The position numbers and the translations under genes are program-made. From positions 1-34,934 of the forward strand of contig JAFWLM010000078.1 in assembly GCA_017511045.1 (NCBI GenBank): 34,934 nt of DNA. Direction: 5' to 3'. How positions within the stretch are numbered: position 1 is the first letter of the stretch; each line of letters opens with the position of its first letter. Positions 18,059 through 34,934 of this stretch are shown piece by piece. Origin of the DNA: Lachnospiraceae bacterium (GTDB lineage Bacteria > Bacillota > Clostridia > Lachnospirales > Lachnospiraceae). Below the pieces are notes generated by a model. The model did not search any database and was not told the origin of the DNA. It worked only from the letters and a program-made list of their open reading frames with translations.

Positions 18059-18074
18059 GTTAGCGTTGGCTAAC
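18059..18074. promoter_or_regulatory. GTTAGC-GTTG-GCTAAC operator
   Basis: Perfect arms, 22 nt before the DUF3793 ATG and about 80 nt after the first operator of the same promoter. Confidence 0.7.
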
Positions 18075-18095
18075 CGCTATGAAAGGATTAAGTTC

Positions 18096-18650: not shown

Positions 18651-18712
18651 AAGACATTTATTATACATTTGACACTTAAAGTCTCAAATATTATTTACAG
18701 GAGGTTATATCA

Positions 18713-20039: not shown

Positions 20040-20080
20040 TTTTCACTCCTCCAAATAATTTCATCTTATTTTCAGGAATA

Positions 20081-20114
20081 ATTATACACTAATTAGTTAG
20101 CTATTGCTAACTAA
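20081..20114 (-). promoter_or_regulatory. methyltransferase promoter with extended GTTAGC-type operator
   Basis: Arms TTAGTTAGC (20093-20101) and GCTAACTAA (20106-20114), perfect over 9 bp, spacer TATT. The site overlaps a weak -35 of the leftward promoter, whose -10 TATAAT lies at 20086-20081. It could also reach the divergent MFS gene. Confidence 0.7.
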
Positions 20115-20237
20115 TAATGTAAAGAATTACTATTATTCTTTTGTACCGCTTTACAAAACAGGGTCGACTGAGTTTATAGGAATATCTAATGTCAGAAGGA
20201 GATCCCATGTTTTATTATAATAAAAAGGATTTGTAAC

Positions 20238-21566: not shown

Positions 21567-21637
21567 TCATTTACAAGTCCAGCATAGCATGAACCCTGAC
21601 CGACATCTTCGGGAAGAGTCTTTGGACTTCTTCCGTA

Positions 21638-22807
21638 TTATGCAGGAACGAGCTCAGTACAATATTGGTCGAAATATTCATTTAAATAGGGAATGTTTAC
21701 TTGATACTCTTCAGGAACGTCATATGTGAGTTTATCGATAAACTCATCTCTGACTTTTAATCGTTCCTCTTCTGTCATATCGGACTTTAAATGATTTCCG
21801 TAATACATTTTTGCAATATAATCGTACACCTTGTGGAACGTAGATTCCTTTATTTCATATTCCTTATCATGGTAATCCTGATATTGCAGTTCTATCAGTC
21901 CTATGACTTCAACCGCATCTTCATCGCCATTGTATTCATTTAGTTTTTGTTCAAAGTACGTTAAATTATGTTCCACAAAATCCTGGTAGGTATAGTTATC
22001 CATTTCCGTAACCATTAATTCAACCATATTGCTTTGAAACTGATAAGCGATGTCTTTTTCGTAAGGATCATATGATCTTAAAGTCAATAATGAATTGAGT
22101 GCTTCTCCGATTACTGTTCCATGGCCGGAATAAGACTGAAAACGTGCTTTAACCCTGGTCTCTCCAAGATGAGTATTCAAGCTTCTTATCGGATGTCCCA
22201 TTTCATGCATGATAACCTGATACTCCCACGTTCCCGGAATGTATTCATATTCCTTCACTGTATAAATAACATTTTCGTCCTGTCGATACACAGCAGATGC
22301 GGTACCACTCATCGCCTTTAACTGCATGTCCATTTCTGACAGTTCAACAATTTTCAATGTCTGTAAGTTCATATGCCAGATTCGCAAGTCCAAAGAAGGG
22401 TATTGTCCTCTAAGATTGTTTACAAGTGTCAGATACAGTTTTTTATACGGAAGTGAAATACCGGTATTGGCATTAATATCATCAATAATATCATCATAGG
22501 TAATATCCTCCCGCCGATTCCCGAAGACGCCGTCCAGTTCATCACTGTTATATATTTTGATCAGATTAAATCCATCTGTTCTTGTATCGACTTTAAAATT
22601 TTGTTTTTCCTGATCAATATATTGATATAATTCATCAAGTGCTTTTTGAGCTTTCTCCAGATCGTTTCGATCGTCAGGATTCATACGGACTGTGTTTTCA
22701 GCCGGATATATTTCCTGTTTTTCAAAAGATTTAACCATCGAAGCGACAAAGAGAATAATCCCGAGAATGCTGATAACGATTGATAAAGGAACTATCATTC
22801 TTTTCAT
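21638..22807 (-). CDS. membrane-anchored putative zinc metallopeptidase (HExxH)
   Basis: 389 residues. One N-terminal membrane helix (VPLSIVISILGIILFVASMV, residues 6-25) without a lipobox, so the rest is probably outside the cell. HEMGH at 201-205 is a zinc-binding HExxH, and GEALNS (E236) lies 31 residues later at the spacing of a gluzincin third ligand. The remainder is acidic and Tyr-rich (YDDIIDDINANTG, EYNGDEDAVEVIGLIELQYQDYHDKEYEIKE). I recognise no named family. AGGAGG precedes the ATG. Single gene, convergent with the MFS gene. Confidence 0.7.
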   Translation of the reverse strand: MKRMIVPLSIVISILGIILFVASMVKSFEKQEIYPAENTVRMNPDDRNDLEKAQKALDELYQYIDQEKQNFKVDTRTDGFNLIKIYNSDELDGVFGNRREDITYDDIIDDINANTGISLPYKKLYLTLVNNLRGQYPSLDLRIWHMNLQTLKIVELSEMDMQLKAMSGTASAVYRQDENVIYTVKEYEYIPGTWEYQVIMHEMGHPIRSLNTHLGETRVKARFQSYSGHGTVIGEALNSLLTLRSYDPYEKDIAYQFQSNMVELMVTEMDNYTYQDFVEHNLTYFEQKLNEYNGDEDAVEVIGLIELQYQDYHDKEYEIKESTFHKVYDYIAKMYYGNHLKSDMTEEERLKVRDEFIDKLTYDVPEEYQVNIPYLNEYFDQYCTELVPA

Positions 22808-22934
22808 CTTTGTTTCCTCCTTTTATTTACTGTAAGCAGAATAACATACTGCATTTGTTCTTTTGTTTTTCTGACATACATGGTTCTGAGGAAAGGTGCT
22901 TTAGATGTAATGGAAGATCGAGTTAATACTGAAA

Positions 22935-22955
22935 AAGCGAGCTTTCTGCTCGCTT
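22935..22955. terminator. hairpin AAGCGAGC/GCTCGCTT
   Basis: Perfect 8-bp stem with loop TTTCT. On the minus strand TTT follows. It lies behind the tRNA terminator and may be a second stop for the same leftward transcript. Confidence 0.5.
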
Positions 22956-22992
22956 AACAATAAAAGCGGCAAGACTTTCGCCTTGCCGCTTT
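22956..22992 (-). terminator. terminator of the former tRNA-Phe transcript
   Basis: AAAGCGGCAAG (22963-22973) with CTTGCCGCTTT (22982-22992); on the minus strand TTTTATTGTT follows. It starts 16 nt after the 3' end of the tRNA fragment, which is where a tRNA terminator belongs. Confidence 0.75.
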
Positions 22993-23007
22993 GCTCATTT
23001 CGTCAAA

Positions 23008-23049
23008 TGCCCAGGACCGGAATCGAACCAGTGACACGCGGATTTTCAG
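23008..23049 (-). tRNA. 3' fragment of a tRNA-Phe gene (attR-like scar)
   Basis: On the minus strand the 42 nt run from the anticodon loop CTGAAAA (anticodon GAA) through the 3' anticodon stem TCCGC, variable loop GTGTC, T-arm ACTGG-TTCGATT-CCGGT and acceptor strand CCTGGGC to discriminator A; no CCA is encoded. Upstream of the loop the sequence no longer matches a tRNA (GTCCG where GCGGA is needed), and no 5' half is present. This is not a functional tRNA. A break in the anticodon loop is the classic result of tyrosine-integrase insertion. Confidence 0.85.
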
Positions 23050-23198
23050 CGGACAGAACATACGTTCGTGCCGGTTTATAGTGTGTTTTATTGTCACCTT
23101 TGAACAGTTTTTCTGTTTGTCATTTGAACAATATAAACAAAAAAATGACGTTTTAACACGCAGTAAAACAGGGTAAAAAGGAAAAAGGCATCAAAACT

Positions 23199-23239
23199 GT
23201 TAGACAACTGTTAGACGCAGGAGGCCAATTTTGTTAGAC
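23199..23239. repeat. three GTTAGAC direct repeats near the att-like scar
   Basis: GTTAGAC at 23199-23205, 23210-23216 and 23233-23239, spaced 11 and 23 bp (about one and two helical turns). They may be integrase arm-type or excisionase sites. No gene is visible in 23054-23298. Confidence 0.45.
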
Positions 23240-23293
23240 GCTTTAATGTAGTCAATCGCATGTTAAAAAATCATAACCACGTCATCTGCCAGA

Positions 23294-23319
23294 AAGGAAC
23301 AGCCTCGAACATGAGACTG
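23294..23319 (-). terminator. possible terminator of the DAPG-hydrolase-family gene
   Basis: On the minus strand CAGTCTC-ATGTTC-GAGGCTG (23319-23300, one G-U pair), then TTCCTTTCT. Weak T-run. Confidence 0.45.
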
Positions 23320-23347
23320 CCCTCCCCTCTATCAATTGGTTTAATCT

Positions 23348-24163
23348 TTACCAGTTCTCTTTTTCCTCTGCGTAAACGCTTGGAAGGATCTTATTCAGAT
23401 TTGTGAACTCTTTAATATTATGAGCCAGAAGTCCTTTTGCAATCATGGTCCATTCTTCTTCCGGAAGAATCTTTGTGACCGGTGCAAGGCACTTTGCCTT
23501 TCCATCAACAAAGTTATAGCCGATCCAGAATCTTGCCATAAATGTTTTTACGCCGTTAACTTCTTTTAGCGTTTCATCCATGATGACCGGAACCTTCATT
23601 TCTCCAAGCTGGGCATTCGCACTAACAAGGAACTCGCAGTTTTCCGTTCCGATTTTTCCCCAGTCATACCCCATCTGTCCCGGATCAGTAAAACCGATCA
23701 CGATCTCCTGCGGTGGTCCACCAATTGATTCCTGAACGGTATGGGTTGCACCCCATGTTTTCTCTTCCATCGGGATCGACGGATCTAATGCGCGTTCTCT
23801 TCCAACATCATTGATCTGAACATCAAAATGATCTTCCGGATCCCAGATCGCATAACGGAAAGCTTCAAGTCCATGCCAAGCGAACCACCAGTAGAGCATG
23901 TCTGCATTAACATCCGGCATTGGAATATTTCCTGCACACAGAAGTCCGCCTTCCTCCAGCGGATAATATCCAAATTCCTCTGGGAAAACACCTGCTTCGA
24001 TAAACTTTGGTCTATCTTCAACAGAAACCAGCCCTTTTGTATGGCCGCATCCAGCCACCATCGCCATCTGTTCATCTGTTGGAGATGCGATTCCCTGCTC
24101 ATAATACTTGTAATATGCTTTTGTTTTTGCATCTTCTGCAATTGGTACTAATGCCATTTTCAT
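23348..24163 (-). CDS. DAPG hydrolase (PhlG)/phloretin hydrolase family protein
   Basis: 271 residues, like PhlG and the Eubacterium ramulus phloretin hydrolase. LYWWFAWHGLEAFRYAIWDPEDHF spans residues 90-113, with H97 as a likely zinc ligand. AHNIKEF gives H248 and E252, matching the H-x3-E pair H270/E274 I recall for PhlG. The family cleaves a C-C bond between an aromatic ring and an acyl group, as in 2,4-diacetylphloroglucinol or phloretin. AAGGAGGG precedes the ATG. It follows two URO-D-type genes in the same direction. The substrate here is inferred. Confidence 0.82.
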   Translation of the reverse strand: MKMALVPIAEDAKTKAYYKYYEQGIASPTDEQMAMVAGCGHTKGLVSVEDRPKFIEAGVFPEEFGYYPLEEGGLLCAGNIPMPDVNADMLYWWFAWHGLEAFRYAIWDPEDHFDVQINDVGRERALDPSIPMEEKTWGATHTVQESIGGPPQEIVIGFTDPGQMGYDWGKIGTENCEFLVSANAQLGEMKVPVIMDETLKEVNGVKTFMARFWIGYNFVDGKAKCLAPVTKILPEEEWTMIAKGLLAHNIKEFTNLNKILPSVYAEEKENW

Positions 24164-24178
24164 TCCCTCCTTACACTT

Positions 24179-24229
24179 TTATCTGTTTGCAGCATTTGCA
24201 TAGAATCCCATTCCATAGGAAAGATGTTC
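24179..24229 (-). pseudogene. C-terminal stub of a third URO-D-family gene
   Basis: The minus frame reads EHLSYGMGFYANAANR and a stop. It matches the C-terminus of the URO-D protein at 26251-27300 (EHLSYGMGFYANPANR) in 15 of 16 residues. A stop codon precedes it in frame and no homologous sequence is seen upstream. It is therefore the tail of a deleted tandem copy, lying between the remaining URO-D gene and the hydrolase gene. Confidence 0.8.
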
Positions 24230-24316
24230 TTACAAGAAGGAGAATCCTCCTTCCCGCTTTTTTTACAGGCAACAATCTTTAGTTTTCTCTACTTTTCTGA
24301 ATCCTGTTATTATACT

Positions 24317-25426
24317 TTAAGCGTTCTTCCAGGGACCCTGGTTATTTTTCTTATAGAACGATACACCATATTTAAAATGTTCCTGAAGCTGTGTTGGAAG
24401 CAAGCCGAAGTTCGCAACATGTGGAAATGCAACATAGCTTCCTCCTGGAGCAAGAACGTTTACTGCCCTATCGTATTCTGCAATCTGATCAGCCTTCGGA
24501 CATCCTGGCTGTTCTAAGATTCCCTGATTATCCTCACCGCCGACAAAGGTCAGCTGATTCTGGTATTTATCTTTAATTTCACGGATATTTGTATTTCCTG
24601 CCTGTAGCGGATCCAGGGCATCAACGCCAATTTCGATCAGATCCGGAATGATCGGTTCTATATATCCACAGGAATGATGCTGATATTTAATGCCCATTTC
24701 ATGGCATGCGTCGACCATGCGTTTCAGCTGAGGCTTAATGATTGCTCTCCAGGTATCAGGAGACATCAGCATACGATCTTTTGATCCATAATCATCATGT
24801 GCGTTAATAATACTGACCGGATAATACTGTCCGATCTTCTGGAAGAATTTAATCTTATGATTTGCCATTGCTTCAAAATATTCTGCACAGCTTTCAGGAT
24901 CCGATGCCAACGCGATTAAGGCGTTTTCAAATCCCATGAGAGAATGCATCCGTTCAAACATTCCGTTCAATACCATTGCCACTCCCGCCTTATTTGGATC
25001 AACGATCGATTTTCCATTCTTCGTATATACGCGATGGCCTGCAGAAAGACTTGCAACCAGATCTGTTCGAAGATCCTCTTCTGCCTGCTTTTCCCAGTCG
25101 ATTGCGTCAAGATCCGGAAACTTAATATACTCTTTCCAGTCTGCAATATCATCGAACAGAATTTTGCCAGGTGTCGGCATCGGTGCTCCGATATTTGACT
25201 CATAGGTCCATTCCACTCCGAACCAATCTGTTCCGACATCATGTCCGCAGTATCTCTCACCTTCCATTTTGGGTTGAAGAAGCCAGCAGTCTGTATAAAT
25301 ACATGGGATCCAATACGGTGTCTTATGTTCATACGCCATAAGTGTGTTTTCTTTTTCTGTGATTCCTGTTTTCTTTTTAAAGTTCTGTGCTTTGATTGCG
25401 TTAATAATCATTCCTGGTCCTGGCAT
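24317..25426 (-). CDS. uroporphyrinogen decarboxylase (URO-D) family protein, copy 1
   Basis: 369 residues from the ATG at 25426, which has AAGGAGGA seven bases upstream; a GTG at 25447 is inside that ribosome site. It is a TIM-barrel URO-D homologue, but not HemE: the N-terminal RQAGR motif is absent. HSC (251-253) in YQHHSCGYIEP matches the HxC zinc motif of MtaA/MtbA-type methyltransferases, and INAHDDYGS and FVGGEDNQGILEQP are further family blocks. The third zinc cysteine (GC of the C-terminal pGCGi block) is replaced by GGSYVAFP. The substrate is unknown; methyl transfer or aromatic chemistry is possible. Confidence 0.85.
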   Translation of the reverse strand: MPGPGMIINAIKAQNFKKKTGITEKENTLMAYEHKTPYWIPCIYTDCWLLQPKMEGERYCGHDVGTDWFGVEWTYESNIGAPMPTPGKILFDDIADWKEYIKFPDLDAIDWEKQAEEDLRTDLVASLSAGHRVYTKNGKSIVDPNKAGVAMVLNGMFERMHSLMGFENALIALASDPESCAEYFEAMANHKIKFFQKIGQYYPVSIINAHDDYGSKDRMLMSPDTWRAIIKPQLKRMVDACHEMGIKYQHHSCGYIEPIIPDLIEIGVDALDPLQAGNTNIREIKDKYQNQLTFVGGEDNQGILEQPGCPKADQIAEYDRAVNVLAPGGSYVAFPHVANFGLLPTQLQEHFKYGVSFYKKNNQGPWKNA

Positions 25427-25503
25427 AATAAAATCCTCCTTTTTCACTGTATCGACCTTTCGATCGTCCTATCTTACTGAGGAAAGAATAAAAGAATGCA
25501 GCC

Positions 25504-25572
25504 AAGAGTTTTAGAACGTTTTTCTACTATGCGTATGCTCATCGAACTCTTTGTACGATTTTGTCCAAGAGT
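25504..25572. promoter_or_regulatory. possible TetR operators between URO-D copy 1 and the TetR gene
   Basis: ACTCTT (25546-25551) and AAGAGT (25567-25572) form an inverted repeat with 15 bases between, just before the TetR ribosome site. A third CCAAGAGT lies at 25502-25509. They sit between divergent genes, where an autoregulator would bind. Confidence 0.4.
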
Positions 25573-25603
25573 GTGTTATATTTAAGAAAAGGAGGCAAGA
25601 ACC

Positions 25604-26191
25604 ATGAATCGCCGCGAATTCAGTAAAATTGAAACAGTAAAACATATCAAATCAAATTTTCTTTTGAGTTATGAGTCGTATGGAATTGATAAGATTAATA
25701 TCAATGAACTTTGTAAACAGGCAATGGTTGCAAAGTCCACCTTTTATCAGTATTTTGATGATAAATATGCGGTTCTTGAGGAGATTGAGAAAGAGCTTCT
25801 TGAGGGTTTGATCTCAATCGTATTTGAGCCGGAAGAAGAGCTTAATATTGCGCACCTTCTTAACGGAACTCCGGCTCCAATTGCCCTTAATGTAATTCAT
25901 TTTCTTGACGAACACAAACGGGAATTCCGCGCGATCCTCGGCCAGAATGGTGACCCCGCATTTGTAAAGAAATGGCATAAATATATTATGCGAAGCTATG
26001 AAGAGCTGTTCCGTGATAAGAAAAAAGCCGCAAAGCAGGGAAAGCTGACTGCCTCTCTATTTGCTTCTTCCCTTTTGGAATTATATCGTTTTTATCTTTC
26101 GGATTCCCCGAAAATGTCTGCCAAAGAATGTGCCATTTTGGCCGGCAATATCCTGAAATGCTTTTTATTCGATTTTGAAGCGTTTGTATAA
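25604..26191 (+). CDS. TetR/AcrR family transcriptional regulator
   Basis: 195 residues. The N-terminal HTH reads ININELCKQAMVAKSTFYQYFDDKYAVLEEIEKELL (residues 28-63), the TetR signature with the YxxFxxK helix. The C-terminal domain is diverged, as usual for the ligand pocket. AAAAGGAGG precedes the ATG. It lies between the two URO-D genes and is divergent from copy 1, its likely target. Confidence 0.9.
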   Translation: MNRREFSKIETVKHIKSNFLLSYESYGIDKININELCKQAMVAKSTFYQYFDDKYAVLEEIEKELLEGLISIVFEPEEELNIAHLLNGTPAPIALNVIHFLDEHKREFRAILGQNGDPAFVKKWHKYIMRSYEELFRDKKKAAKQGKLTASLFASSLLELYRFYLSDSPKMSAKECAILAGNILKCFLFDFEAFV

Positions 26192-26222
26192 AAAATCAGG
26201 CAGGAGAAATTTCCTGCCTGAT
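26190..26222. terminator. terminator between TetR and URO-D copy 2
   Basis: ATCAGGCAGGA (26195-26205) with TCCTGCCTGAT (26212-26222). TTTTT follows on the minus strand; the genes are convergent and it may serve both. Confidence 0.75.
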
Positions 26223-26250
26223 CTGTGGTTTTCAATCTTATTAATTCTGT

Positions 26251-27300
26251 TTATCGGTTCGCCGGATTCGCATAGAAGCCCATTCCATAGCTAAGGTGTT
26301 CTTCCATGAAAGGCTCCATGAAGTCAAACCCGATCGTGATCGGATAGACCACGTAGCTTCCGCCCGGAGCCAGAAGATCTACAGCTCTGCGATATTCTGC
26401 TTTAATCTCATCCGGCGTAACATTTGGTTGCTCCAGAACATACTGATTATCAAAGCCTCCGCAGAAGGTGATCTTGTCGCCGTATTTTTTCTTTAATTCA
26501 CCAACATTCTTGTTGGATCCGCCCTGCCAGGTATCAACCGCATCCACACCGATTTCAATAAAATCTTCGATCAACGGCTCGATATATCCACAGCTGTGAT
26601 GCTGATAGATCAGACCATCTTTATGAACTTGTTCCACCATCTTGGCAAGATTTGGTTTGATCAGTTTTCGCCAAAGATCAAGAGGCATAAACAGTTGGTG
26701 CGCACTGCCGTAATCATCATGTCCATTAATTCCGTCAACCGGATAATAAGTTGCGATCTTATGGAAATATTTGCATTTCCAATCTGCAATTGCAGCGAAA
26801 TAATCAGCACAAGCTTCCGGCTCTTCGATCAGATCGCAAAGTGCATTGTCAAAGCCTTCCAGTGAATGCATTCTCTCAAACGGTCCGTTAATGACCATGC
26901 ACATGTTGAATTTACTTGTATCATCAAAACTGTTATGTCCATCTTCAAAAGGCAGAAGCAAACCGGTTGCAACGAGTGCCATCATATTTGTGGTTCCATC
27001 GATTTGCACTTGTTTTTCCCAGTCAATTGTTTCCAGATCCGGAAATTTGATTTTCTGCCAATCAGTAATGCAGTCAATCTGGTGATTCTGTGTTGTCATT
27101 GGTGCATTCGCCTTTGGTTCAAATTTCCATTCCACTCCAAAACCATCTTTGCCAACACCGTGTCCGCAGAAACGCTCCATCATTGGGTTTGCCTGAAACA
27201 GATTGATATCTGTAAACATGGACGGCATATAAAACGGTACTTTATGCTGATAAGCCAGCATGACATTTTCTTTTGGTAATACTTGAGGTGCTGCTCCCAT
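26251..27300 (-). CDS. URO-D family protein, copy 2
   Basis: 349 residues, clearly a paralogue of copy 1: EWKFEPKANAPM, INGPFERMHSLEGFDNAL, INGHDDYGSAHQLFM, YQHHSCGYIEPLIEDFIEIGVDAVD and FCGGFDNQYVLEQP. The HxC pair lies at 235-237, RQAGR is absent, and the late cysteine is replaced by GGSYVVYP as in copy 1. GGAGGA precedes the ATG. The gene is downstream of a perfect T-N11-A box and follows the LysR gene at 27458. Two different paralogues plus a stub suggest subunits or substrates that differ. Confidence 0.85.
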   Translation of the reverse strand: MGAAPQVLPKENVMLAYQHKVPFYMPSMFTDINLFQANPMMERFCGHGVGKDGFGVEWKFEPKANAPMTTQNHQIDCITDWQKIKFPDLETIDWEKQVQIDGTTNMMALVATGLLLPFEDGHNSFDDTSKFNMCMVINGPFERMHSLEGFDNALCDLIEEPEACADYFAAIADWKCKYFHKIATYYPVDGINGHDDYGSAHQLFMPLDLWRKLIKPNLAKMVEQVHKDGLIYQHHSCGYIEPLIEDFIEIGVDAVDTWQGGSNKNVGELKKKYGDKITFCGGFDNQYVLEQPNVTPDEIKAEYRRAVDLLAPGGSYVVYPITIGFDFMEPFMEEHLSYGMGFYANPANR

Positions 27301-27408
27301 GATCCTATCCTCCTTTGATTTTTTCGATTCTAAGACATAGATGATTCTCTGTCTTCGCTTTTAATTACAAGTTGATATTACAAGGAGGATCGTTCGACGT
27401 CCAATCAC

Positions 27409-27447
27409 GAAACGTCATTTTTCAATAACATTATGTTATTACGTTTC
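27409..27447. promoter_or_regulatory. LysR-type box upstream of URO-D copy 2
   Basis: AATAACAT-T-ATGTTATT (27424-27440) is a perfect palindrome containing T-N11-A (27426-27438). It is framed by an outer repeat GAAACGT (27409-27415) / ACGTTTC (27441-27447). On the minus strand TTGGAC and TAATAT, about 18 nt apart, lie downstream, so the box is in an activator position. Confidence 0.55.
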
Positions 27448-27457
27448 TGAGTATATT

Positions 27458-28339
27458 CTATTTGGGATTCACAAAAAGCGGAATGGCCGGATTGTAGTTT
27501 TCTGCTTTCCAGATAAAACAAGAACTGGCCTGCTGATTTGTATCTATAACAATGTTTTCAAGCAGGCGAATGGATGTTTTCGATGTAATGTTTGAGTTAT
27601 GGTTTATGATACCTACTCCCTGTCCGGCTTCGATCCACATCATGATCGTGGCCAGGTTAGGAGCATAACGGATATCAGAAAAAGAGACGCCACTTCTTTT
27701 TAAGAAGGCTTGAATCAATTCATATCCCGCCCGGCTGTCATCCGGTGAAATAATAATCAGGGTTTCTTCCATAAGATCATTCAGCAAAACCTTTTTCTTT
27801 CTCCCCGTACCGGTATGCCGAGAAATTGCAAAAACCGGGCTATCTTTACAGAATTCAGTTATAACGATTCCTTTCATATCATGAACATCAAAATTCAGTG
27901 TGTAAGCGATATCAATACTTCCATCAATGACCCATTCTCTCAGATCACGGAAGGAACCTTGTTTAAACACCAGATCAATATTCGGGTTTTCCTGCATGAA
28001 ACGCATCAGCTTATCCGTTAGTTCCTCATTGACATATTGTCCACCAAGCATTCCAATCACCAAACGGCCGGAATATCCTTGTCCGATTTTTTGTGCTTTA
28101 TGTAGGATTTCTTCAAGTCTGCTCTCAAAATCCTGAAGCTCTTTTGCAAGAACCGCCGCAGCCGGTGTAAGACGAACACTTTGCTTGTCACGAATAAAAA
28201 GCAGGGTGTTCAGTTCCCTTTCCAGCGAGACAATCTGTCTGCTTAAACCCGGCTGAGTAATGAAAAGCTGTTTTGCTGCTTTTGTGAAATTTAAAGTTTC
28301 GGCGACCGCCAGAAAACATTTGATCTGAGTTGTATTCAT
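27458..28339 (-). CDS. LysR family transcriptional regulator (next to URO-D copy 2)
   Basis: 293 residues. The HTH reads NTTQIKCFLAVAETLNFTKAAKQLFITQPGLSRQIVSLEREL; the C-terminal domain has GRLVIGMLGGQ and MMWIEAGQGVGIINH. It lies upstream of and in line with URO-D copy 2 and is the best candidate to bind the box at 27424-27440. Confidence 0.92.
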   Translation of the reverse strand: MNTTQIKCFLAVAETLNFTKAAKQLFITQPGLSRQIVSLERELNTLLFIRDKQSVRLTPAAAVLAKELQDFESRLEEILHKAQKIGQGYSGRLVIGMLGGQYVNEELTDKLMRFMQENPNIDLVFKQGSFRDLREWVIDGSIDIAYTLNFDVHDMKGIVITEFCKDSPVFAISRHTGTGRKKKVLLNDLMEETLIIISPDDSRAGYELIQAFLKRSGVSFSDIRYAPNLATIMMWIEAGQGVGIINHNSNITSKTSIRLLENIVIDTNQQASSCFIWKAENYNPAIPLFVNPK

Positions 28340-28372
28340 GCTTACCCTTTAATTACTTATCTTATTTCGTTT

Positions 28373-29278
28373 TTATTGCTGTTGTCTGGTAATGTTGGAA
28401 TAGCATTCCTCCATTTTTTGAACAAAATGATGAAGAAGCGGACTTTCGGAATCTTTTAACCAGATTAGTTCAAGCCATAAAAGATCATGCTCATCCACGT
28501 CAATGGTTCGAATATCCGGGAATTGATCCAGAAGTGCAAATTTTGACATCAGTGCTACTCCTGCGCCGGAATTCACCATCATCATCAATTCTTCAGGAGA
28601 AGCACATTCAATAATACTCTTCGGTTTCATCTGATTCTTTTTTAAGATTCCTTTCGAATGTGAAAAAGGAATAGAAGATTCTGCCTTTGAAAGGATCAGA
28701 AAGTTATCTTTCTCAAATTCTTTCATCTTCACAGAAGTTTTGTCGGCAAGACGGTGCGTTTTATGGACTATCATAGACGGTGTATCCTGATCCAGGACCA
28801 GATGCGCAAGGTTTTCCTCCTTCATTTCTCCAAGCCGTAAACGCAGACCAACCTGGATCTCTTTTCGGTAAAGAGCCGGGCAAATCGTATCCCAGTTAAA
28901 TCTTTGCATGCTGACTTTCAAATTAGGAATAACGTTGATCATTTCATTCGCTATCATTGGGATGGTATAGGCAAACCGGATTCCCATTGTCCCAATCCTA
29001 AGTTCAGAACTTTCCTGATTTGCTGCAGCCCGGACAGCGGAATAGATATCTGATTCTTTGGAAAAAATTTCATTTGCTTTATCATAAAGCACCTTTCCGG
29101 CATCAGTAAGGATCAAATCTCGATTTGTCCGTACAAACAGCTGAACTCCAAAATCTTCTTCCAGCTCCTTGATATGCCGACTGATTGCAGACTGACTGAC
29201 ATAAAGCTCGGAAGCAGCTTTCGTATAATTCAGATTCTTTGCAGCAATATAAAAATATTTTAACTTATTATAATTCAT
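28373..29278 (-). CDS. LysR family transcriptional regulator (divergent from ferredoxin/FAD operon)
   Basis: 301 residues from the ATG at 29278; a TTG 36 nt upstream would add an unconserved extension. The HTH reads NYNKLKYFYIAAKNLNYTKAASELYVSQSAISRHIKELEEDFGVQLFVR. The effector domain has ELRIGTMGIRFAY and MMVNSGAGVALMSK. It ends 33 nt before the other LysR gene and is divergent from the ferredoxin/FAD operon, its probable target. The ribosome site is weak. Confidence 0.9.
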   Translation of the reverse strand: MNYNKLKYFYIAAKNLNYTKAASELYVSQSAISRHIKELEEDFGVQLFVRTNRDLILTDAGKVLYDKANEIFSKESDIYSAVRAAANQESSELRIGTMGIRFAYTIPMIANEMINVIPNLKVSMQRFNWDTICPALYRKEIQVGLRLRLGEMKEENLAHLVLDQDTPSMIVHKTHRLADKTSVKMKEFEKDNFLILSKAESSIPFSHSKGILKKNQMKPKSIIECASPEELMMMVNSGAGVALMSKFALLDQFPDIRTIDVDEHDLLWLELIWLKDSESPLLHHFVQKMEECYSNITRQQQ

Positions 29279-29403
29279 AACCCTATAATTAATGCTCAAC
29301 GTAACTATCTGCAAACATTACATCTATAACCTTTTATCCAAGCATAGCATCATAAGCATTTCGGTTATTTTTCTCAGTATATCATTATTTCAGAGTTGAC
29401 AGC

Positions 29404-29420
29404 TATAACAAAAAGTTGAA
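29404..29420. promoter_or_regulatory. degenerate LysR-box-like site upstream of the ferredoxin gene
   Basis: TATAAC-AAAAA-GTTGAA resembles the ATAAC-N5-GTTAT core of the box at 27424-27440, with one arm changed. It lies about 120 nt before the ferredoxin gene in the 29279-29537 intergenic region. Confidence 0.3.
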
Positions 29421-29537
29421 GCTACCATTGATTAATCGATAATTCTCCCGAAGGTATTCGCATGATAGCATGAAGATGTCTTAAACAGCAGATGGTCAAA
29501 ATATTCATCTGCCAATAAAAACAAAGGAGGAGGAAAA

Positions 29538-29786
29538 ATGGTAAAAGAACTTAAGGTTGATCGCGAGAAATGTGTGCATTGCAAGACTTGTCTGGATGTT
29601 TGTTTCAAAAATGTAATTGAATGGGACGAGGAACAACAGATACCTTATGCAAAGTATCCGCTTGATTGTCAGGTATGCTGTATCTGCGAAACAACTTGCC
29701 CGAAAAATGCAATCGAAGTCATTCCTGACTGGGATGCCAAATACTATCCGCGTTATGTTTCCACTATGAGGGAGGTGAAATTCTGA
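29538..29786 (+). CDS. ferredoxin-type protein with two [4Fe-4S] sites
   Basis: 82 residues. Cluster 1 is C12-x2-C15-x2-C18-x3-C22, with Phe where Pro usually follows. Cluster 2 is C44-x2-C47-x2-C50-x3-C54-P with an extra C48. The C-terminus (YYPRYVSTMREVKF) extends beyond the clusters. AAAGGAGGAGG precedes the ATG. Its stop shares a base with the next ATG (TGATG), so it is translationally coupled to the FAD protein and is very likely its electron-transfer subunit, an arrangement like AprBA. Confidence 0.92.
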   Translation: MVKELKVDREKCVHCKTCLDVCFKNVIEWDEEQQIPYAKYPLDCQVCCICETTCPKNAIEVIPDWDAKYYPRYVSTMREVKF

Positions 29787-31507
29787 TGAAAGATTTAAAA
29801 GAAATCGGTATTGTCCATGAATCACAGATACTTATTATCGGAGGTGCCTGTTCAGGACTTACAGCAGCGCTTACTGCGAAAGAAGCAGACCGCAATGTCG
29901 ATATTTTAATTACTGACATGGCATGCGCAAGCAAAGGATGGGCTGGAAAAGCTGCAAGAACCGCAGGCCTGATCAGTTTTGTCGAAAAGGGTCAAGACCC
30001 GGAGGATTTTGCAAAGTACAATCTGAATGAAATCGGATTCTGGTTGAATGATCAGCATCTTCTTCGGGATATGGCCTATAACAGCAGAAGACTGGTTGCA
30101 CATCTTGAAGACTGGGGCGTTTCTGTTGAAAAGAAAGAAGATGGATCGTTCGACGTCGCCGAATGGCCATTCCCCTGGGTTACAGGCGGAATTGATCCGG
30201 ATATGTGCAAGCATATGGCAAAGAAGGCTCACGAATATGGAGTACGTTTTGAAGATCGCATTGAGATCGTGAAATTATTAAAAGATGGAGAGCGCGTAAT
30301 CGGTGCAGTTGGCTTTGGTATCAAAGACGGTTCTTTCCATATCTTCCTGGCAGATATCACGATCATCGCCTGTGGAACCCAGAATTTTGATATCACTCCA
30401 ATCTGGTGCGGCACCGGTGTTTCTCAAAGTCTTGCGTGGGATGCTGGCTGTGAATTCCGGAATTGTGAATTTGCCGGCATGGGAGATTTCGGGCGTATTG
30501 ACGAAGAGGGGCATGTATTCTACGGTATGCACGGCGGAGCCCATATTGGACACGACCATATGTATGTAGGCGAAGAGAATATTTCACAAAAATGGCGTCC
30601 GGGTTTCCACTCTTCCATGGATCCATATGCTGCAAATGCATGGTACCAGGAATATAAGCTCGGTCATTGGCCAATCAAAATCGATATGAATGCATTCAAT
30701 GCACAGGGCGGTGGCGGAGAGTTTTTCAAGTTCCATCCGGAAGCTTTCAAACGTTATATGCGTCACCATCAGGTTGGCGGATATCCATTCGACAACCAGG
30801 TCTTTGATGTTGTTCCCGGCGTTATTTCCGAACTCGGCGCAATTCGTGTCGGCCATTCCATGGAGACTACGGTTCCCTGTCTTCTTGCGATCGGTGATTC
30901 TGCTGGTTCCGGAAGTGCAAGAGCCGGGGCCGTTCCCGCACCGCCGGCAAAGATCCACGGAACAGGTCTGTTGAATGCACTCTATATGGGAACACGAGGT
31001 GGTGAATCTGCTGTTGACCTGATCCACACAGTCTCAAAACTCAACCTGTCAAAGAATATTGACCCGGAAGAAATTGAAAGAATTAAAGAAGAAACCTTTG
31101 CTCCATTAAAGCGCGAAGATGGTATTAATCCTCGTGACATCATCCATGAGGTTCAGGAAGCAATGGCTCCTGTCGACTACATTTTTGTTAAGTCTGAAGA
31201 TCGTATGAAAGAAGCACTTGCTCTGATTGAAGATGCAGGAACAAAACTTGATCAAATGAAAGTTGATAATACGCATGATCTTGTCAAGGCAATTGAAGCA
31301 AAAGCAATGGTTCTCGGTGGAAAGCTGTTCTATAACGCCTCTATGATGCGAACAGAATCCAGAGGCTTCCAGCTCAGAGAGGACTATCCGGAAACAGATA
31401 ATGAAAACTGGTTAAAATGGATCATTGTTAAGAAAGGACCTGAAGGCGATTTCGAATTCCGAACGGAGGATATTCCGATCGATCAGTATGATTACAAACC
31501 GATGTAG
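29786..31507 (+). CDS. FAD-binding reductase, fumarate-reductase/AprA-like flavoprotein
   Basis: 573 residues. The FAD Rossmann motif is ILIIGGACSGLTAALTA (G19, G20, G24), followed by TDMACASKGWAGKAARTAG in place of the usual small-residue FAD loop. The C-terminal FAD block reads LLAIGDSAGSGSARAGAVPAPPAKIHGTGLLNALYMG. The middle has MHGGAHIGHDHMY and FHPEAFKRYMRHHQVGGYPF, which could hold active-site His and Arg residues. The overall plan matches FAD_binding_2 oxidoreductases such as fumarate, urocanate or APS reductase alpha subunits. No signal peptide, so it is cytoplasmic. Substrate unknown; an unsaturated aromatic or enoate fits the context. Confidence 0.88.
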   Translation: MKDLKEIGIVHESQILIIGGACSGLTAALTAKEADRNVDILITDMACASKGWAGKAARTAGLISFVEKGQDPEDFAKYNLNEIGFWLNDQHLLRDMAYNSRRLVAHLEDWGVSVEKKEDGSFDVAEWPFPWVTGGIDPDMCKHMAKKAHEYGVRFEDRIEIVKLLKDGERVIGAVGFGIKDGSFHIFLADITIIACGTQNFDITPIWCGTGVSQSLAWDAGCEFRNCEFAGMGDFGRIDEEGHVFYGMHGGAHIGHDHMYVGEENISQKWRPGFHSSMDPYAANAWYQEYKLGHWPIKIDMNAFNAQGGGGEFFKFHPEAFKRYMRHHQVGGYPFDNQVFDVVPGVISELGAIRVGHSMETTVPCLLAIGDSAGSGSARAGAVPAPPAKIHGTGLLNALYMGTRGGESAVDLIHTVSKLNLSKNIDPEEIERIKEETFAPLKREDGINPRDIIHEVQEAMAPVDYIFVKSEDRMKEALALIEDAGTKLDQMKVDNTHDLVKAIEAKAMVLGGKLFYNASMMRTESRGFQLREDYPETDNENWLKWIIVKKGPEGDFEFRTEDIPIDQYDYKPM

Positions 31508-31532
31508 AATTGCAGACATGCAGTAAGAAGGA

Positions 31533-31565
31533 AGGGGCTGTCACGACAGCCCCTTTGTATTTTTC
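31533..31565 (+). terminator. terminator of the ferredoxin/FAD operon
   Basis: AGGGGCTGT (31533-31541), loop CACG, ACAGCCCCT (31546-31554), then TTGTATTTTT. It follows the FAD gene stop by 25 nt. Confidence 0.85.
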
Positions 31566-31636
31566 TTGTAAATATAGGCTTCTTCGGATCAGAAAGAAGA
31601 AAAAAGCAAATCAAAAGAAATAATATAAAGCTTCAA

Positions 31637-31864
31637 TCAATTTCCGCCATTAAAAAGTTCTTCCAGTATATCTCCATGCTCTTCAAAAACTCGCAGAACA
31701 TATTTGTTCCAGTGACGGGCATCTTTTGTGCTGCTGCCAAAAACATAATCTTCCTGACCATAGTCCATTACGTCAAAGCCCGGGATTGCTTTGCTTGCTC
31801 CGGCTGTTCTGTAGGTCGCAATTTCTGCCAGGGAGAAGCTTGCTCCGTATACAGCGCCGATCAA
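31637..31864 (-). pseudogene. internal fragment resembling subtype-B tannase (alpha/beta hydrolase)
   Basis: 75 residues, starting only at a TTG right after an in-frame stop and ending LEELFNGGN. The stretch KAIPGFDVMDYGQEDYVFGS then TKDARHW resembles KAVPAFDQLDLTSPENNLFGD and AKAKHF, which I recall from Lactobacillus plantarum tannase. The nucleophile Ser region and the C-terminal catalytic His/Asp part are absent, so it cannot be an active esterase. It reads as a relic of a tannase-like gene next to polyphenol-type genes. The identification rests on one conserved block. Confidence 0.5.
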
Positions 31865-32005
31865 AAAAATTTATTTTTTAAGAATGTGTTTTTCTTATCC
31901 TCAATATCTCATAATATTAACTTGTCTGTGAAAACAGTTTTTATACTCGCGAAGCTATCAGCAAAAATATGGAGTTTTTCTCATCTGTAAAAAACAGAAT
32001 TCTAA
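31865..32005. other. AT-rich gap, no gene seen
   Basis: Strongly AT-rich sequence between the tannase-like fragment and the antitoxin gene, with T- and A-runs but no convincing hairpin terminator or open frame. Confidence 0.5.
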
Positions 32006-32299
32006 TTATTTTGTCTCTGTTTTGGGGACAAATTGCAAAACCAGTCTCATGCCAAGCCCCTCTGCAAGACGCTGAACCATATTGATGCTGGGATTTCTGG
32101 TTCCATTTTCAATTCTACTGATATCCGCTTGCGTAATTCCCGTTCTTTCTGACAGCTCCTTCTGTGTTAGATTCTGTTTTTTTCGGGCATCGATCATTGC
32201 CTGAATAATATTATATTCCGGTGCAAGAGCTTCATACGCTTCCCGGAGTTCCGGATCGTTTTTTAATGCTTCATCACGATATTTCTGATAACTTCCCAT
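32006..32299 (-). CDS. HigA-like antitoxin (XRE family)
   Basis: 97 residues from the ATG at 32299, which overlaps the toxin stop by one base (TAATG) and has GGAGGG upstream. The HTH reads RKKQNLTQKELSERTGITQADISRIENGTRNPSINMVQRLAEGLG (about residues 48-92). An N-terminal helical part (YQKYRDEALKNDPELREAYEALAPEY) is typical of toxin-neutralising HigA/RelB2 proteins. Toxin-first gene order is the HigBA hallmark. Expected to bind the toxin and repress the operon. Confidence 0.88.
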   Translation of the reverse strand: MGSYQKYRDEALKNDPELREAYEALAPEYNIIQAMIDARKKQNLTQKELSERTGITQADISRIENGTRNPSINMVQRLAEGLGMRLVLQFVPKTETK

Positions 32300-32664
32300 T
32301 ACTCTTTCCCTCCTGCTTTCTTCTGACATTCGCAGTAGTCATCCCGATACTTTTTAGCCAACGCAAGCTCTTTTTGGGGTGTTTTCTGTGACTTCTTTAT
32401 AAATCCATTAGCAAGAATTGCCTTCTTCCCAAAGAAGAAAAAATATAAAACCCTACTGATATCTGTTCCTTGTTTCGCCCGGAGCTCAAATATGCCATCC
32501 TCTACTGATCTGGAATGTGGCATTCGTAAGTCCGGTCCATTTGCCATCAAAAGATCAATTTCCCGAAACATTTTTGCCTTGAGTTTCGGTTCAAGGGACT
32601 CCAAAAAATTTCTAACAGGTTCCGTTCCATCGGCTAGTTCGTAAAACTCTACATCAATGAACAT
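32299..32664 (-). CDS. RelE/HigB family toxin (Gp49-like)
   Basis: 121 residues from the ATG at 32664 behind AAGGAG; a longer frame to 32703 lacks a ribosome site. It has PVRNFLESLEPKLKAKMFREIDLLMANGP, MPHSRSVEDGIFELRAKQGTDISRVLYFFF and ILANGFIKKSQKTPQKELALAKKYRDDY, the standard blocks of phage Gp49-like HigB mRNA interferases. Lys and Arg of the RAKQGTDISRVLY and FIKKSQKTP blocks are likely active-site residues. Co-translated with the downstream antitoxin. Confidence 0.88.
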   Translation of the reverse strand: MFIDVEFYELADGTEPVRNFLESLEPKLKAKMFREIDLLMANGPDLRMPHSRSVEDGIFELRAKQGTDISRVLYFFFFGKKAILANGFIKKSQKTPQKELALAKKYRDDYCECQKKAGGKE

Positions 32665-32738
32665 CGTCTCTCCTTCCTTTACAGAATATGTCTTATGCAA
32701 CATATTGTCAAGCTCTTTTCCAATTGTTTTCTTTCGGT

Positions 32739-33575
32739 TTATTTAAGAAACAACCTCCTGAACTTTTGGACTGCTTTCTTGTAAATTTGCTCCGCTGCCT
32801 CTGCAGAAGCTAATCCGTTATTTGTTGCGATTTCTTTAAACTTCATCTCTTCCTTGTTTCCATAACAAAACTCACAAATACCGCATCGTGATGCGACTAC
32901 GTTTTTCTGCCTTGGAGTCAGCTGCTCAAATGAGCCCTTCAATCGTTCCCACCTCAATAGCCGGAAGCACATTTCTTCTGCACTGGCTTCCTGATCTGCC
33001 ATCAAATCTTCAATCGTAAGGCCTGAATCTTCATCGAGTTCTTCCTCCATACTGATTACATTTTCACTGTCCAAGCCGGCCAAGATATATTCCTTGACTG
33101 TCTTCACTGACAGTTCCAATTCATTTGCGATTCGTTCCAGATTCTTCCTGTCGTAATTCCTGTCCGATTGATTGAACAGTTTCATCACATTACGGAGGGT
33201 TCGGAATTCATGTGCGGAAGGAATCGTAAAGCCTGTTCGCATCGTCCGCACATATTCCATTATTTCTTCCAGAACGATATATTCTTTGTATTGTAAAAAT
33301 GTTTTTCCATACTGCGAATCGTAGTAGCGCATCGCCTGATAAAGTCCATATACAAACACAGACTTCAAGTCTTTAAAATGTCCCTCCATGGAAAAACGCT
33401 CGACATATCCCTGCACCTTGTGGTTCATACGTGGTTCGTAGTAATGGAGGAATGCAGCAAGGTCTTCTTCCTTTCCATTGTTCAGATACAATTGAATATA
33501 TTCCTCTGTCGTTTTCTTTTTCGGTGCAGGATCCAACTGAAACCATTTCTTCTCGTCCTCGTTTTCTCTCTCCAT
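32739..33575 (-). CDS. sigma-70-like factor with cysteine-containing region 4
   Basis: 278 residues. The N-terminal half (YLNNGKEEDLAAFLHYYEPRMNHKVQGYVERF, then LKSVFVYGLYQAMRYYDSQYGKTFLQY) resembles sigma region 2, and ERIANELELSVKTVKEYI resembles a region 3/4 HTH. The last 65 residues, LTPRQKNVVASRCGICEFCYGNKEEMKFKEIATNNGLASAEAAEQIYKKA in outline, form a region-4 HTH interrupted by CGICEFC. Its start overlaps the stop of the DUF6076 gene by one base, so it shares that operon and its SOS-type promoter. Target promoters unknown. Confidence 0.75.
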   Translation of the reverse strand: MERENEDEKKWFQLDPAPKKKTTEEYIQLYLNNGKEEDLAAFLHYYEPRMNHKVQGYVERFSMEGHFKDLKSVFVYGLYQAMRYYDSQYGKTFLQYKEYIVLEEIMEYVRTMRTGFTIPSAHEFRTLRNVMKLFNQSDRNYDRKNLERIANELELSVKTVKEYILAGLDSENVISMEEELDEDSGLTIEDLMADQEASAEEMCFRLLRWERLKGSFEQLTPRQKNVVASRCGICEFCYGNKEEMKFKEIATNNGLASAEAAEQIYKKAVQKFRRLFLK

Positions 33576-34717
33576 TAATAGCCTCCTGCCCTCATAAACT
33601 GCATGACACCTCTTTTAAACGCTTTCGGCTGCATATCCTGGAAGTACTGTTTCCTTGCATAATCATCATCCAGTATGGCCATCTCTTTCAGTTCCAAGGC
33701 ATACCGTTTTGCTACCTGTGCAAAGTCTTCATCAAAAACTCCCCTCATCTGATTAGTTCGGATATATCCCATCCGTCGTTTATAAACCGCTACGACCGGA
33801 TTACCTTCCGCAAGTTCCTTCACTCCACAGGAAGCTGCATACTTCCGACAGCTTAAGTCCTTTCCGTCTGTCAGTTTCTTTGGCGCTTTCCCGGAACAGT
33901 AGTACTGTCTGCGGGCATTCAGCATTAGAAAGTATTTCCCACAGACCGGGCATTGTCTCGGATAATGCCCATAATGAAGCCCTTCATAAAAATCTGTCAG
34001 GATAAAGCTGTAATAATCAGAAAACCGTAGTCTCCGAACCGTAATCGTTTTCTTTCGGTAGGTTATTGATACATATTGCGCTTTGGATACGATCTCTCCG
34101 GGCAGTTCCTCCCTCGCGATTGGAAGAAGATGTTCCTCATCAAACCGCTCAGCCTCTTCCAGCCGATCAATAAATCGGCGAAGACCATAAAACGCATCCC
34201 GCATTCCATCACCAATGCTTTCATAAAACTTCAAGGTTTCAGAAACGGTAGCAATCAGCTGCCGGCAGGAATCGTATTCTGCCGTTTCATATCCCGGAAC
34301 ACAGATTCCCATGCCGTTGACAAGCGGATCCTTCTGCTCAATCTTTGAACGCATCTGAAAAAAGGATTGTATCCGTTCGGCATTTTCCATGCTGAATAAT
34401 TCATTGATACGTTGTTTTTCCTTATCAATATCAAACAGATCAAACGGTCTGAGTTTTCCAACATTATTTAGGATTTCAAACAGTTCATCTTTTGCAGCAG
34501 CAAATTCCTTTACTTGAAGAAATCCCAGATCCAGTTCTCTCTGAACTTCCCAGTTATGGATCAACATACTGATCCGTGCAGCTGTATCATTCACATAGAA
34601 TTGCTGAAGAAGATGCATGGCAAAGACGCCTGCAGCGTACCGCTTTCCATTTATATAAACATTCCCGTTATAATAATCTGCTTCAAAAAAGGAAAATAAG
34701 TCGTTCTTCATGATCAT
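33575..34717 (-). CDS. DUF6076-like protein with a C-terminal zinc finger
   Basis: 380 residues (ATG at 34717; ATG at 34711 is equally well placed behind GGGGG). Mostly helical in the first 260 residues, then QCPVCGKYFLMLNARRQYYC, a spacer and SCRKYAA, giving four cysteines laid out like the CGNR-type zinc finger. This matches the uncharacterised DUF6076 family found in Clostridia, by resemblance. No signal peptide. First gene of the two-gene operon with the sigma-like factor, transcribed from a promoter with a LexA box, so its expression should rise after DNA damage. Confidence 0.7.
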   Translation of the reverse strand: MIMKNDLFSFFEADYYNGNVYINGKRYAAGVFAMHLLQQFYVNDTAARISMLIHNWEVQRELDLGFLQVKEFAAAKDELFEILNNVGKLRPFDLFDIDKEKQRINELFSMENAERIQSFFQMRSKIEQKDPLVNGMGICVPGYETAEYDSCRQLIATVSETLKFYESIGDGMRDAFYGLRRFIDRLEEAERFDEEHLLPIAREELPGEIVSKAQYVSITYRKKTITVRRLRFSDYYSFILTDFYEGLHYGHYPRQCPVCGKYFLMLNARRQYYCSGKAPKKLTDGKDLSCRKYAASCGVKELAEGNPVVAVYKRRMGYIRTNQMRGVFDEDFAQVAKRYALELKEMAILDDDYARKQYFQDMQPKAFKRGVMQFMRAGGY

Positions 34718-34743
34718 CCCCCATCCCCATGAGTGTAGTCAAA

Positions 34744-34772
34744 ATTATAAAACCGAACATTTGTTCGGTCAA
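34744..34772 (-). promoter_or_regulatory. SOS promoter: LexA/DinR box inside a sigma-A promoter
   Basis: On the minus strand TTGACC (34772-34767), 17 nt, TATAAT (34749-34744), a near-consensus promoter. ACCGAACA-TT-TGTTCGGT (34752-34769) lies between and over the two boxes and contains CGAAC-N4-GTTCG, the Bacillota LexA consensus, with perfect arms. The start of transcription is expected near 34737, about 20 nt before the DUF6076 gene. Confidence 0.85.
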
Positions 34773-34934
34773 GTAGGTTTATCCACAAAATTTTGTAAAT
34801 TGCAAAAATAACTTCAGTAGAAGGCGAAAAATCGGAAGTTAGTTGTGCACGTAGTTCCAGTATAATCTGTTGCAGGTAGATCTTCCGCACAGAAAGGATC
34901 GATACCATGATTAGAATAACAGAACATACCGGAA
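34773..34934. other. upstream flank of the SOS operon, no gene supported
   Basis: The sequence contains TTATCCACAAAA and AT-rich stretches. A 64-codon minus frame covers most of it but overlaps the promoter and has no ribosome site, so I do not call it. Confidence 0.4.

Follow-up and report, generated by a model that had tools for sequence, protein, structure and literature searches.

We analyzed a 34,934-nucleotide contig (JAFWLM010000078.1; contig C38), referred to here as the window, from the draft genome of a Lachnospiraceae bacterium (G000; 2.04 Mb, completeness 81%). Our subject was a locus of eight genes at positions 23348-31507 that encodes a PhlG-family hydrolase, two URO-D-family proteins, and a ferredoxin with a flavin adenine dinucleotide (FAD)-binding flavoprotein. 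A preliminary description, made from the sequence alone, had proposed that this set processes a plant aromatic. The genes are arranged in the order PhlG (-), URO-D1 (-), TetR (+), URO-D2 (-), LysR (-), LysR (-), ferredoxin (+), and FAD protein (+). In what follows, G, C, and L numbers denote genomes, contigs, and fetched loci, respectively, and "the genus" is the genus of the window, represented by 14 genomes.

The first gene (23348-24163, minus strand) encodes a C-C hydrolase of the PhlG/phloretin-hydrolase family, as had been described. Its product matched PF18089 (DAPG_hydrolase) with 194.6 bits against a cut-off of 22.7, over model positions 3-223 of 223, and also matched the solved phloretin hydrolase 5xe5 (E = 1.3e-21) and PhlG 3hwp (E = 5e-19). 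With NF047887, the equivalog model for 2,4-diacetylphloroglucinol (DAPG) hydrolase, it scored 78.1 bits where 600 are required, and it is not a member of that narrower group. We aligned 72 PhlG sequences, comprising 70 from the fetched loci (one being the PhlG part of a fusion protein) and the two solved chains. We take H129, E160, H270, and E274 of PhlG to be the zinc ligands, and all four positions are kept in the window protein. The family was present in all 14 genus genomes (1 to 8 PF18089 matches per genome), in 13 of 200 genomes sampled from the family, and in 9 of 295 sampled from the order, with the window's own genome counted in both samples. Nine relatives came from named genomes, all of them metagenome-assembled genomes (MAGs) of Lachnospiraceae, Parasporobacterium (one), and Eubacterium (one), with sources that include the intestines of sheep, yak, and roe deer. 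Methoxylated aromatics support the growth of Parasporobacterium and Sporobacterium, which cleave the ring via the phloroglucinol pathway, according to the parts of PMC10794557 available to us; the genus of the window may be another. In a plasmid collection, the PhlG relatives were only 24-28% identical (in Pantoea, Mycobacterium, Streptomyces, and Sulfitobacter) and were uninformative about context.

The alignment also contained ten sequences (L028:7288-8121 and relatives) that have lost zinc ligands, retain an open reading frame, and are conserved across nine genomes. One copy of this kind is in an operon on host contig C49. In nine of them H129 is replaced by N or F, E160 by R, K, or H, and H270 by Q or A; the G485 copy retains the first ligand. 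Nine of the ten lie directly before ferredoxin/FAD genes, and the one in G489 is at a contig end. In twelve members of the family that are more distant, E160 is replaced by L or F.

The ferredoxin gene (29538-29786, plus strand) overlaps the FAD gene (29786-31507, plus strand) by a single base. The ferredoxin is of the 2[4Fe-4S] type, with Fer4 matches and two CxxCxxCxxxC motifs read by eye. The FAD protein, with matches to FAD_binding_2 and Succ_DH_flav_C, belongs to the AprA/fumarate-reductase superfamily, and the coupled ferredoxin and large FAD reductase of the preliminary description are both present. Its best solved relatives were the alpha subunit of a 3'-phosphoadenylylsulfate (PAPS) reductase (8a8o, E = 4.6e-23) and AprA (1jnr, E = 3.6e-16). 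It scored 82.7 bits with the AprA model TIGR02061, for which the cut-off is 641.75, and is therefore described here as AprA-like.

We compared the neighborhoods of PhlG and AprA-like FAD genes, within a distance limit of 8 kb, with those of twenty control regions, 398 kb in all, for which round coordinates were chosen arbitrarily in six genomes of the genus. Neighbors were scored with profiles built from the loci themselves, with a threshold of 150 bits for URO-D. The Fisher tests should be read with the understanding that related operons are non-independent events and that contig ends hide neighbors. An AprA-like FAD gene was found near 23 of the 50 PhlG genes of the genus (in 10 genomes). 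The other neighbors of these 50 genes were ferredoxin (26), FabK-like (16), URO-D (12), a second FAD family (7), corrinoid protein (1), and methyltransferase II (MT2; 1). The converse held at loci chosen by the FAD gene alone, which represent 20 of 60 FAD matches, from the better-scoring part, with two more loci outside the count: of 21 AprA-like FAD genes, 21 had a ferredoxin gene nearby, 11 a PhlG gene, 8 a FabK-like gene, and 6 a URO-D gene. The twenty control regions contained no PhlG, AprA-like FAD, or FabK-like gene, and had 2 with URO-D, 3 with the second FAD family, 1 with ferredoxin, and 1 with MT2. The link between FAD and PhlG thus stands above the controls, both for PhlG genes (23/50 versus 0/20, p = 1e-4) and for AprA-like FAD genes (11/21 versus 0/20, p = 2e-4), and FabK-like genes were also enriched near PhlG (16/50 versus 0/20, p = 0.003). 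Among 23 PhlG genes of other genomes, 2 had an AprA-like FAD gene nearby, 5 a gene of the second FAD family, and 2 a FabK-like gene. On the whole FAD-family tree, PhlG linkage was only weakly clustered, requiring 7 label changes compared with a mean of 9.7 in shuffles, 35 of 500 of which were as low; several branches are long and placement is unsure. One clade of 12 was wholly PhlG-linked.

The link is also visible in the structure of operons in relatives. The common arrangement is PhlG, ferredoxin, FAD, and FabK-like, to which some operons add URO-D. The host itself has a second cluster, on contig C49, in the order LysR, LysR, MFS, URO-D, PhlG, ferredoxin, FAD, FabK-like (PF03060), MFS, PhlG, and MFS, and clusters of this type recur in the genus with and without URO-D. 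In G239, which is in the same family and another genus, an 813-residue open reading frame (ORF) at L106:9426-11867 joins an AprA-like FAD protein and PhlG (245.6 bits) head to tail, and a ferredoxin gene precedes it.

The two URO-D-family genes that had been noticed were confirmed by matches to PF01208 of 30.5 bits for URO-D1 (24317-25426, minus strand) and 40.3 bits for URO-D2 (26251-27300, minus strand), against a cut-off of 23.9. The two proteins are 50% identical. The likelier start of URO-D1 is the ATG at 25426, which has GGAGG upstream, rather than the GTG at 25447. The stub of a third URO-D gene was not confirmed: tblastn of both proteins against the whole window, with E up to 10, gave nothing significant beyond the two genes. 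Both proteins retain the HxCG motif and show no Cys around the position of the third zinc ligand, and URO-D1 is a candidate methyltransferase I. In the part of PMC10418091 that we consulted, S-methyltransferases of the URO-D superfamily carry His-Cys-Cys, and O-methyltransferases replace one or both Cys.

The partners that a corrinoid-dependent O-demethylating methyltransferase I (MT1) would need are present in the host genome. A PF02607 corrinoid protein and an MT2 are encoded side by side on contig C106, and an activase-family gene (RACo_C_ter) is on C40. A corrinoid gene in the same operon as URO-D is found in G484 (L182) for another URO-D subfamily, where PhlG, MT2, URO-D, and the corrinoid protein lie on the same strand with short gaps, in one apparent operon. 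In G488 (L183:272-11529), seven window-type URO-D genes and one further URO-D gene are gathered around an MT2/corrinoid-protein pair, and a similar array, with five URO-D genes, is present at L184.

Contig C106 also encodes functions that could act on a phloroglucinol product. An SDR, a Cyclase-family protein, a 3-hydroxyacyl-CoA dehydrogenase (3HCDH), a BKACE protein, and a thiolase are close together there, along with phosphate butyryltransferase-like and butyrate kinase-like genes read by eye. The same gene make-up has been published for phloroglucinol degradation, in the portion of PMC10470551 that we saw. The BKACE protein scored 142.6 of 430 with the NCBIfam model for the phloroglucinol step and 236.2 of 382 with that for the lysine-fermentation enzyme KCE, and is under both cut-offs.

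The preliminary description had missed that the locus lies at the end of an apparent mobile element integrated at tRNA-Phe. A 45-bp exact copy of the tRNA-Phe 3' end, resembling an attR right boundary (23005-23049, minus strand), is identical to positions 1053-1097 of host contig C76, where the complete tRNA-Phe is at 1022-1094. Beyond that tRNA, C76 has three GTCTAACA motifs and genes for a tyrosine integrase (PF00589), a MobA/VirD2-type relaxase (PF03432), and an actin-like protein. The window, too, has three GTCTAACA motifs (23198-23239, minus strand), putative integrase arm sites, on the locus side of the repeat and with the same spacings of 23 and 11; at least three occurred in the window in 3 of 100 shuffles. 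None of the six other tRNA-Phe places in the genus has the motif nearby. One of these six, in G484, appears to be an empty site: an uninterrupted tRNA-Phe runs into sequence that is 94% identical over 88 bp to the window repeat and its outer flank, and the tRNAs upstream match those on C76. A terminator-like stem just outside the element in the window (22963-22992, minus strand) has a near-identical counterpart after this uninterrupted tRNA-Phe. The G486 place, at a contig end, is 84% identical over 94 bp to the repeat and flank, and the remaining four match the tRNA alone. We made the empty-site comparison through tRNA-Phe because the gene at 21638-22807 is present in only 1 of the 14 genus genomes, its own. 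Given the tRNA 3'-end repeat, the motifs, the integrase and relaxase beside the intact tRNA on C76, and the continuous native flank in G484, the locus apparently sits just inside the right end of a tRNA-Phe-integrated element, the left end of which is most likely on C76. The G+C content is 41.7% in 23050-32000, compared with 46.5% and 45.7% in the first 20 kb.

Several other features lie near the locus or in the window. On the island side, the region 32006-34717 encodes an HTH_3 and Gp49-like pair (32006-32703, minus strand; toxin-antitoxin-like), a protein with weak matches to sigma-region-4 and HTH_40, and a DUF6076 protein. The gene at 7574-9625 encodes a sodium:solute symporter (PF00474) that carries a cytidylate-kinase-like domain (PF13189) at its C-terminus. 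What looks by eye like the same gene is about 240 bp behind tRNA-Phe in G484 (L236), whereas in the window it is 13 kb further off; more than one insertion may therefore be present at this site. A DUF3793 gene adjoins a flavodoxin-like gene at 18066-19135, and in the opposite order at L106:6826-7748, the locus that contains the fusion (the L106 pair and the flavodoxins were read by eye). A scan for stems placed a terminator-like stem after the FAD gene (31531-31556, plus strand), and a search for RNA families in 20000-34934 gave no match at E 0.1.

The tannase-like fragment that had been reported (31637-31864, minus strand) is a genuine remnant, but not a working gene. It is a C-terminal part of 77 residues that lacks a start and has no Pfam match of its own, and it is not a tannase gene in the sense of a complete gene scoring over a tannase cut-off. 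Over 69 residues, it shares 87% identity with the end of a 717-residue ORF on host contig C108. The C108 ORF had no Pfam match at 1e-4 and scored 136.5 bits with the NCBIfam model tannase_A (cut-off 550) and 118.1 with tannase_B (cut-off 300), and it is a tannase relative, below both model cut-offs. The same contig (L174:6755-18699) encodes, within 12 kb, a URO-D1 relative (58%), a second URO-D type, the tannase-like protein, and an arylsulfotransferase (PF05935).

Our best reading of these data, from the sequences and their relatives, is that the locus is mobile cargo that would demethylate, reduce, and hydrolyze phenolics of the acyl-phloroglucinol type. As right-end cargo of the apparent tRNA-Phe-integrated element, in a bacterium whose kin live in the ruminant gut, it would allow plant phenolics that are methoxylated or acylated to be used anaerobically; we favor this tentatively, at somewhat less than an even chance. 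In the first and least certain step, suggested by family, motif, and genome content, both URO-D proteins would act as substrate-specific methyltransferase I and pass O-methyl groups to the corrinoid protein and MT2 of the host genome. In the second, as its family would indicate, the ferredoxin/AprA-like FAD protein may draw on low-potential electrons and thereby saturate a phenolic double bond, such as that of a chalcone- or flavone-type intermediate. The coupling of FAD proteins of this kind to PhlG is seen in relatives and not for the window copy, and the window's own ferredoxin/FAD pair may work with its PhlG. In the third step, predicted from the family and consistent with the zinc ligands observed, PhlG would cleave a C-C bond and release the acyl side chain from a phloroglucinol-type ring. 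The phloroglucinol could then enter the reductase/cyclohydrolase/dehydrogenase/BKACE cluster observed on C106, whose activity is predicted. The TetR and LysR proteins would sense the substrates.

Several observations, in this paragraph and those that follow, weigh against this reading. The window genes are split over four strand runs, and comparison with relatives shows three separately conserved modules side by side and no single operon. URO-D2 and the LysR at 27458-28339 (minus strand) form one module, and a pair made up of URO-D2 and a similar LysR is conserved in three further genomes of the genus, G480, G484, and G485 (67-79% and 64-69% identity); in G484, a PhlG gene is 6.5 kb from the pair. 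The module of URO-D1 and PhlG carries a PhlG-type regulator, the TetR protein divergent from it (25604-26191, plus strand): relatives that are 35-43% identical are divergent at seven PhlG loci, where a gene of the second FAD family replaces URO-D1 (L050 and L187, which belong to a single contig, were counted once). The other LysR gene (28373-29278, minus strand) is divergent from the ferredoxin/FAD pair, and at L086 a LysR gene has the same place and a product only 28% identical. All three regulators, which the preliminary description had named, were confirmed. The window FAD protein belongs to a clade of three. The other two members, in G482 and G480, are one 58% and the other 48% identical to it, and the stretches fetched around their genes contain neither PhlG nor URO-D; one of these genes adjoins an FAD gene of the second family.

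The counts for URO-D did not exceed the controls, either near PhlG (12/50 versus 2/20, p = 0.32) or near AprA-like FAD genes (6/21 versus 2/20, p = 0.24), and no URO-D scoring above 150 bits lay within 8 kb of any of the 23 PhlG genes from outside the genus. The second FAD family was likewise not enriched near PhlG (7/50 versus 3/20, p = 1.0), yet all seven were within 400 bp. The URO-D-PhlG link therefore comes from operon structure and not from counts: URO-D is within 400 bp of five PhlG genes in four genomes, and it lies directly before PhlG in L054 (350 bits; a named MAG outside the counted set) and beside it in L036 (139 bits, under the threshold). The proposed co-occurrence thus held for hydrolase and FAD, far above controls, but was weaker for URO-D. 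The plant-aromatic idea fared in the same way, with backing from relatives for the hydrolase-flavoenzyme pair and less for URO-D, but not for the unity of the eight genes as one pathway.

The URO-D counts lowered our confidence in the favored reading and raised that in an alternative that we regard as a realistic possibility. In this alternative, URO-D1-PhlG, URO-D2-LysR, and ferredoxin-FAD are independent modules, catabolic or defensive, that share one mobile element but no pathway, and each has its own substrate, phenolic or other. The conserved URO-D2-LysR pair and the nearest relatives of the window FAD protein, without PhlG neighbors, both favor it. So does the division of the units by strand changes and terminator-like stems, such as the one between TetR and URO-D2 (26195-26222, plus strand; the scan gave 17 sites in 20000-32800, versus 10.8 expected in shuffles). 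URO-D genes are also frequent enough in the genus for chance encounters: URO-D1 had 1 to 30 matches per genome, 14 of them in the host, with the caveat that pieces of one gene may count twice. What speaks against independence is that the same gene types are united in single operons elsewhere, FAD and PhlG even in one fusion.

A further alternative, which we consider doubtful, concerns what the URO-D proteins do. They might be decarboxylases, or methyltransferases for other methyl compounds, and the locus would then reduce and hydrolyze without demethylation. The matches to the methyltransferase models MtaA and CmuA were weak, far below the cut-offs, and no corrinoid gene was recognized among the window ORFs, with PF02607 found in the host on C106 only; the host thus has one corrinoid match versus 14 URO-D matches. 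The activase family serves other corrinoid proteins too. Three URO-D proteins of the corrinoid-operon type, when aligned, lacked the HxCG motif. In the parts seen, PMC10418091 depicts a large and mixed superfamily and PMC13222342 reports O-demethylases that are zinc-free, so the zinc motif of the window proteins is a hint only. On the other side, an HxCG half-site with no third Cys fits O-methyltransferases, and in G488 five window-type URO-D genes adjoin MT2, a corrinoid protein, and another URO-D.

Two further points count against substrate and setting as we read them. At positions H214 and Y229, presumably substrate-contact residues, the window PhlG has E and F; E at 214 occurs in 7 of the 72 aligned sequences, and F at 229 is common. 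The G+C content just outside the repeat (20001-23004) is 41.1%, as low as inside, and the genomes are drafts, with the two island ends on different contigs (C76 and C38) and the interior unassembled. A protective rather than a feeding role, with PhlG inactivating acyl-phloroglucinol antibiotics made by microbes in the manner of DAPG turnover by Pseudomonas, is very unlikely: such inactivation is done by PhlG itself, and TetR control is typical of detoxification, but the host has a phloroglucinol-type ring-opening cluster, and the PhlG family is found throughout the genus, often in several copies per genome.

The demethylate, reduce, and hydrolyze scheme resembles several known systems in part. 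The gut flavonoid pathway (FLR, CHI or Fcr, and Phy; Eubacterium ramulus, Flavonifractor plautii, Catenibacillus, and Clostridium butyricum) likewise includes a PhlG-family hydrolase in Clostridia. In C. butyricum, reductase genes are beside the hydrolase gene, and the gut pathway yields phloroglucinol (PMC7862272, PMC11170127, PMC8398226, and PMC11868195, each consulted in part). The reductases of that pathway, as far as these sources show, are FLR, which is flavodoxin-like, and Fcr/enoate reductase, whereas the window has an AprA-like FAD protein with its own ferredoxin, and URO-D. The window PhlG is also distant from the solved Phy and PhlG, in a comparison that excludes the E. ramulus Phy. 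None of FLR, CHI, and Fcr was recognized among the window genes, and no search aimed at them was made. As in the corrinoid O-demethylases (MtvB/OdmB/VdmB with corrinoid protein, MT2, and activase), the host has candidate URO-D MT1 proteins and corrinoid, MT2, and RACo-family genes, but the window URO-D genes are apart from the corrinoid protein of the host. The AprAB adenylylsulfate reductase and the PAPS reductase of Methanothermococcus share an FAD subunit of the same superfamily and a 2[4Fe-4S]-type ferredoxin partner; they differ in that the window FAD protein is far below the AprA cut-offs and has relatives linked to PhlG. The phloroglucinol cluster of Clostridium scatologenes (PGR, DPGC, TfD, and TAL) is like the C106 grouping of SDR, cyclase, 3-hydroxyacyl-CoA dehydrogenase, and BKACE, but the host cluster is outside the window, and its BKACE scores higher with the lysine-fermentation model.

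We did not meet the combination of hydrolase, URO-D, and ferredoxin/FAD in the open-access literature searched, which was only partly viewed, nor a reductase of the AprA-like type tied to PhlG, for which the longer result lists were only partly viewed. None of the terms searched matched in a survey of Fe-S flavoenzymes (PMC7371122). A bolder proposal, which we rate as unlikely, is that PhlG and the ferredoxin-fed AprA-like flavoenzyme form a dedicated machine that reduces and then splits (fused in G239), in an undescribed anaerobic polyphenol route partly spread between gut bacteria on tRNA-integrated elements. The second, zinc-less PhlG in operons of nine genus genomes would then be a non-hydrolytic partner of the flavoenzyme.

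The enzymes that start the anaerobic breakdown of polyphenols, and the animals in which they do so, are known for few gut species. The PhlG-family genes in every genome of the genus, with kin in MAGs from the ruminant gut, make a concrete set of enzymes testable, and the natural fusion of FAD protein and PhlG predicts that the two are directly coupled. The enzymes encoded here probably strip, reduce, and split plant phenolics without oxygen, and the apparent mobile element could pass this trait between strains.

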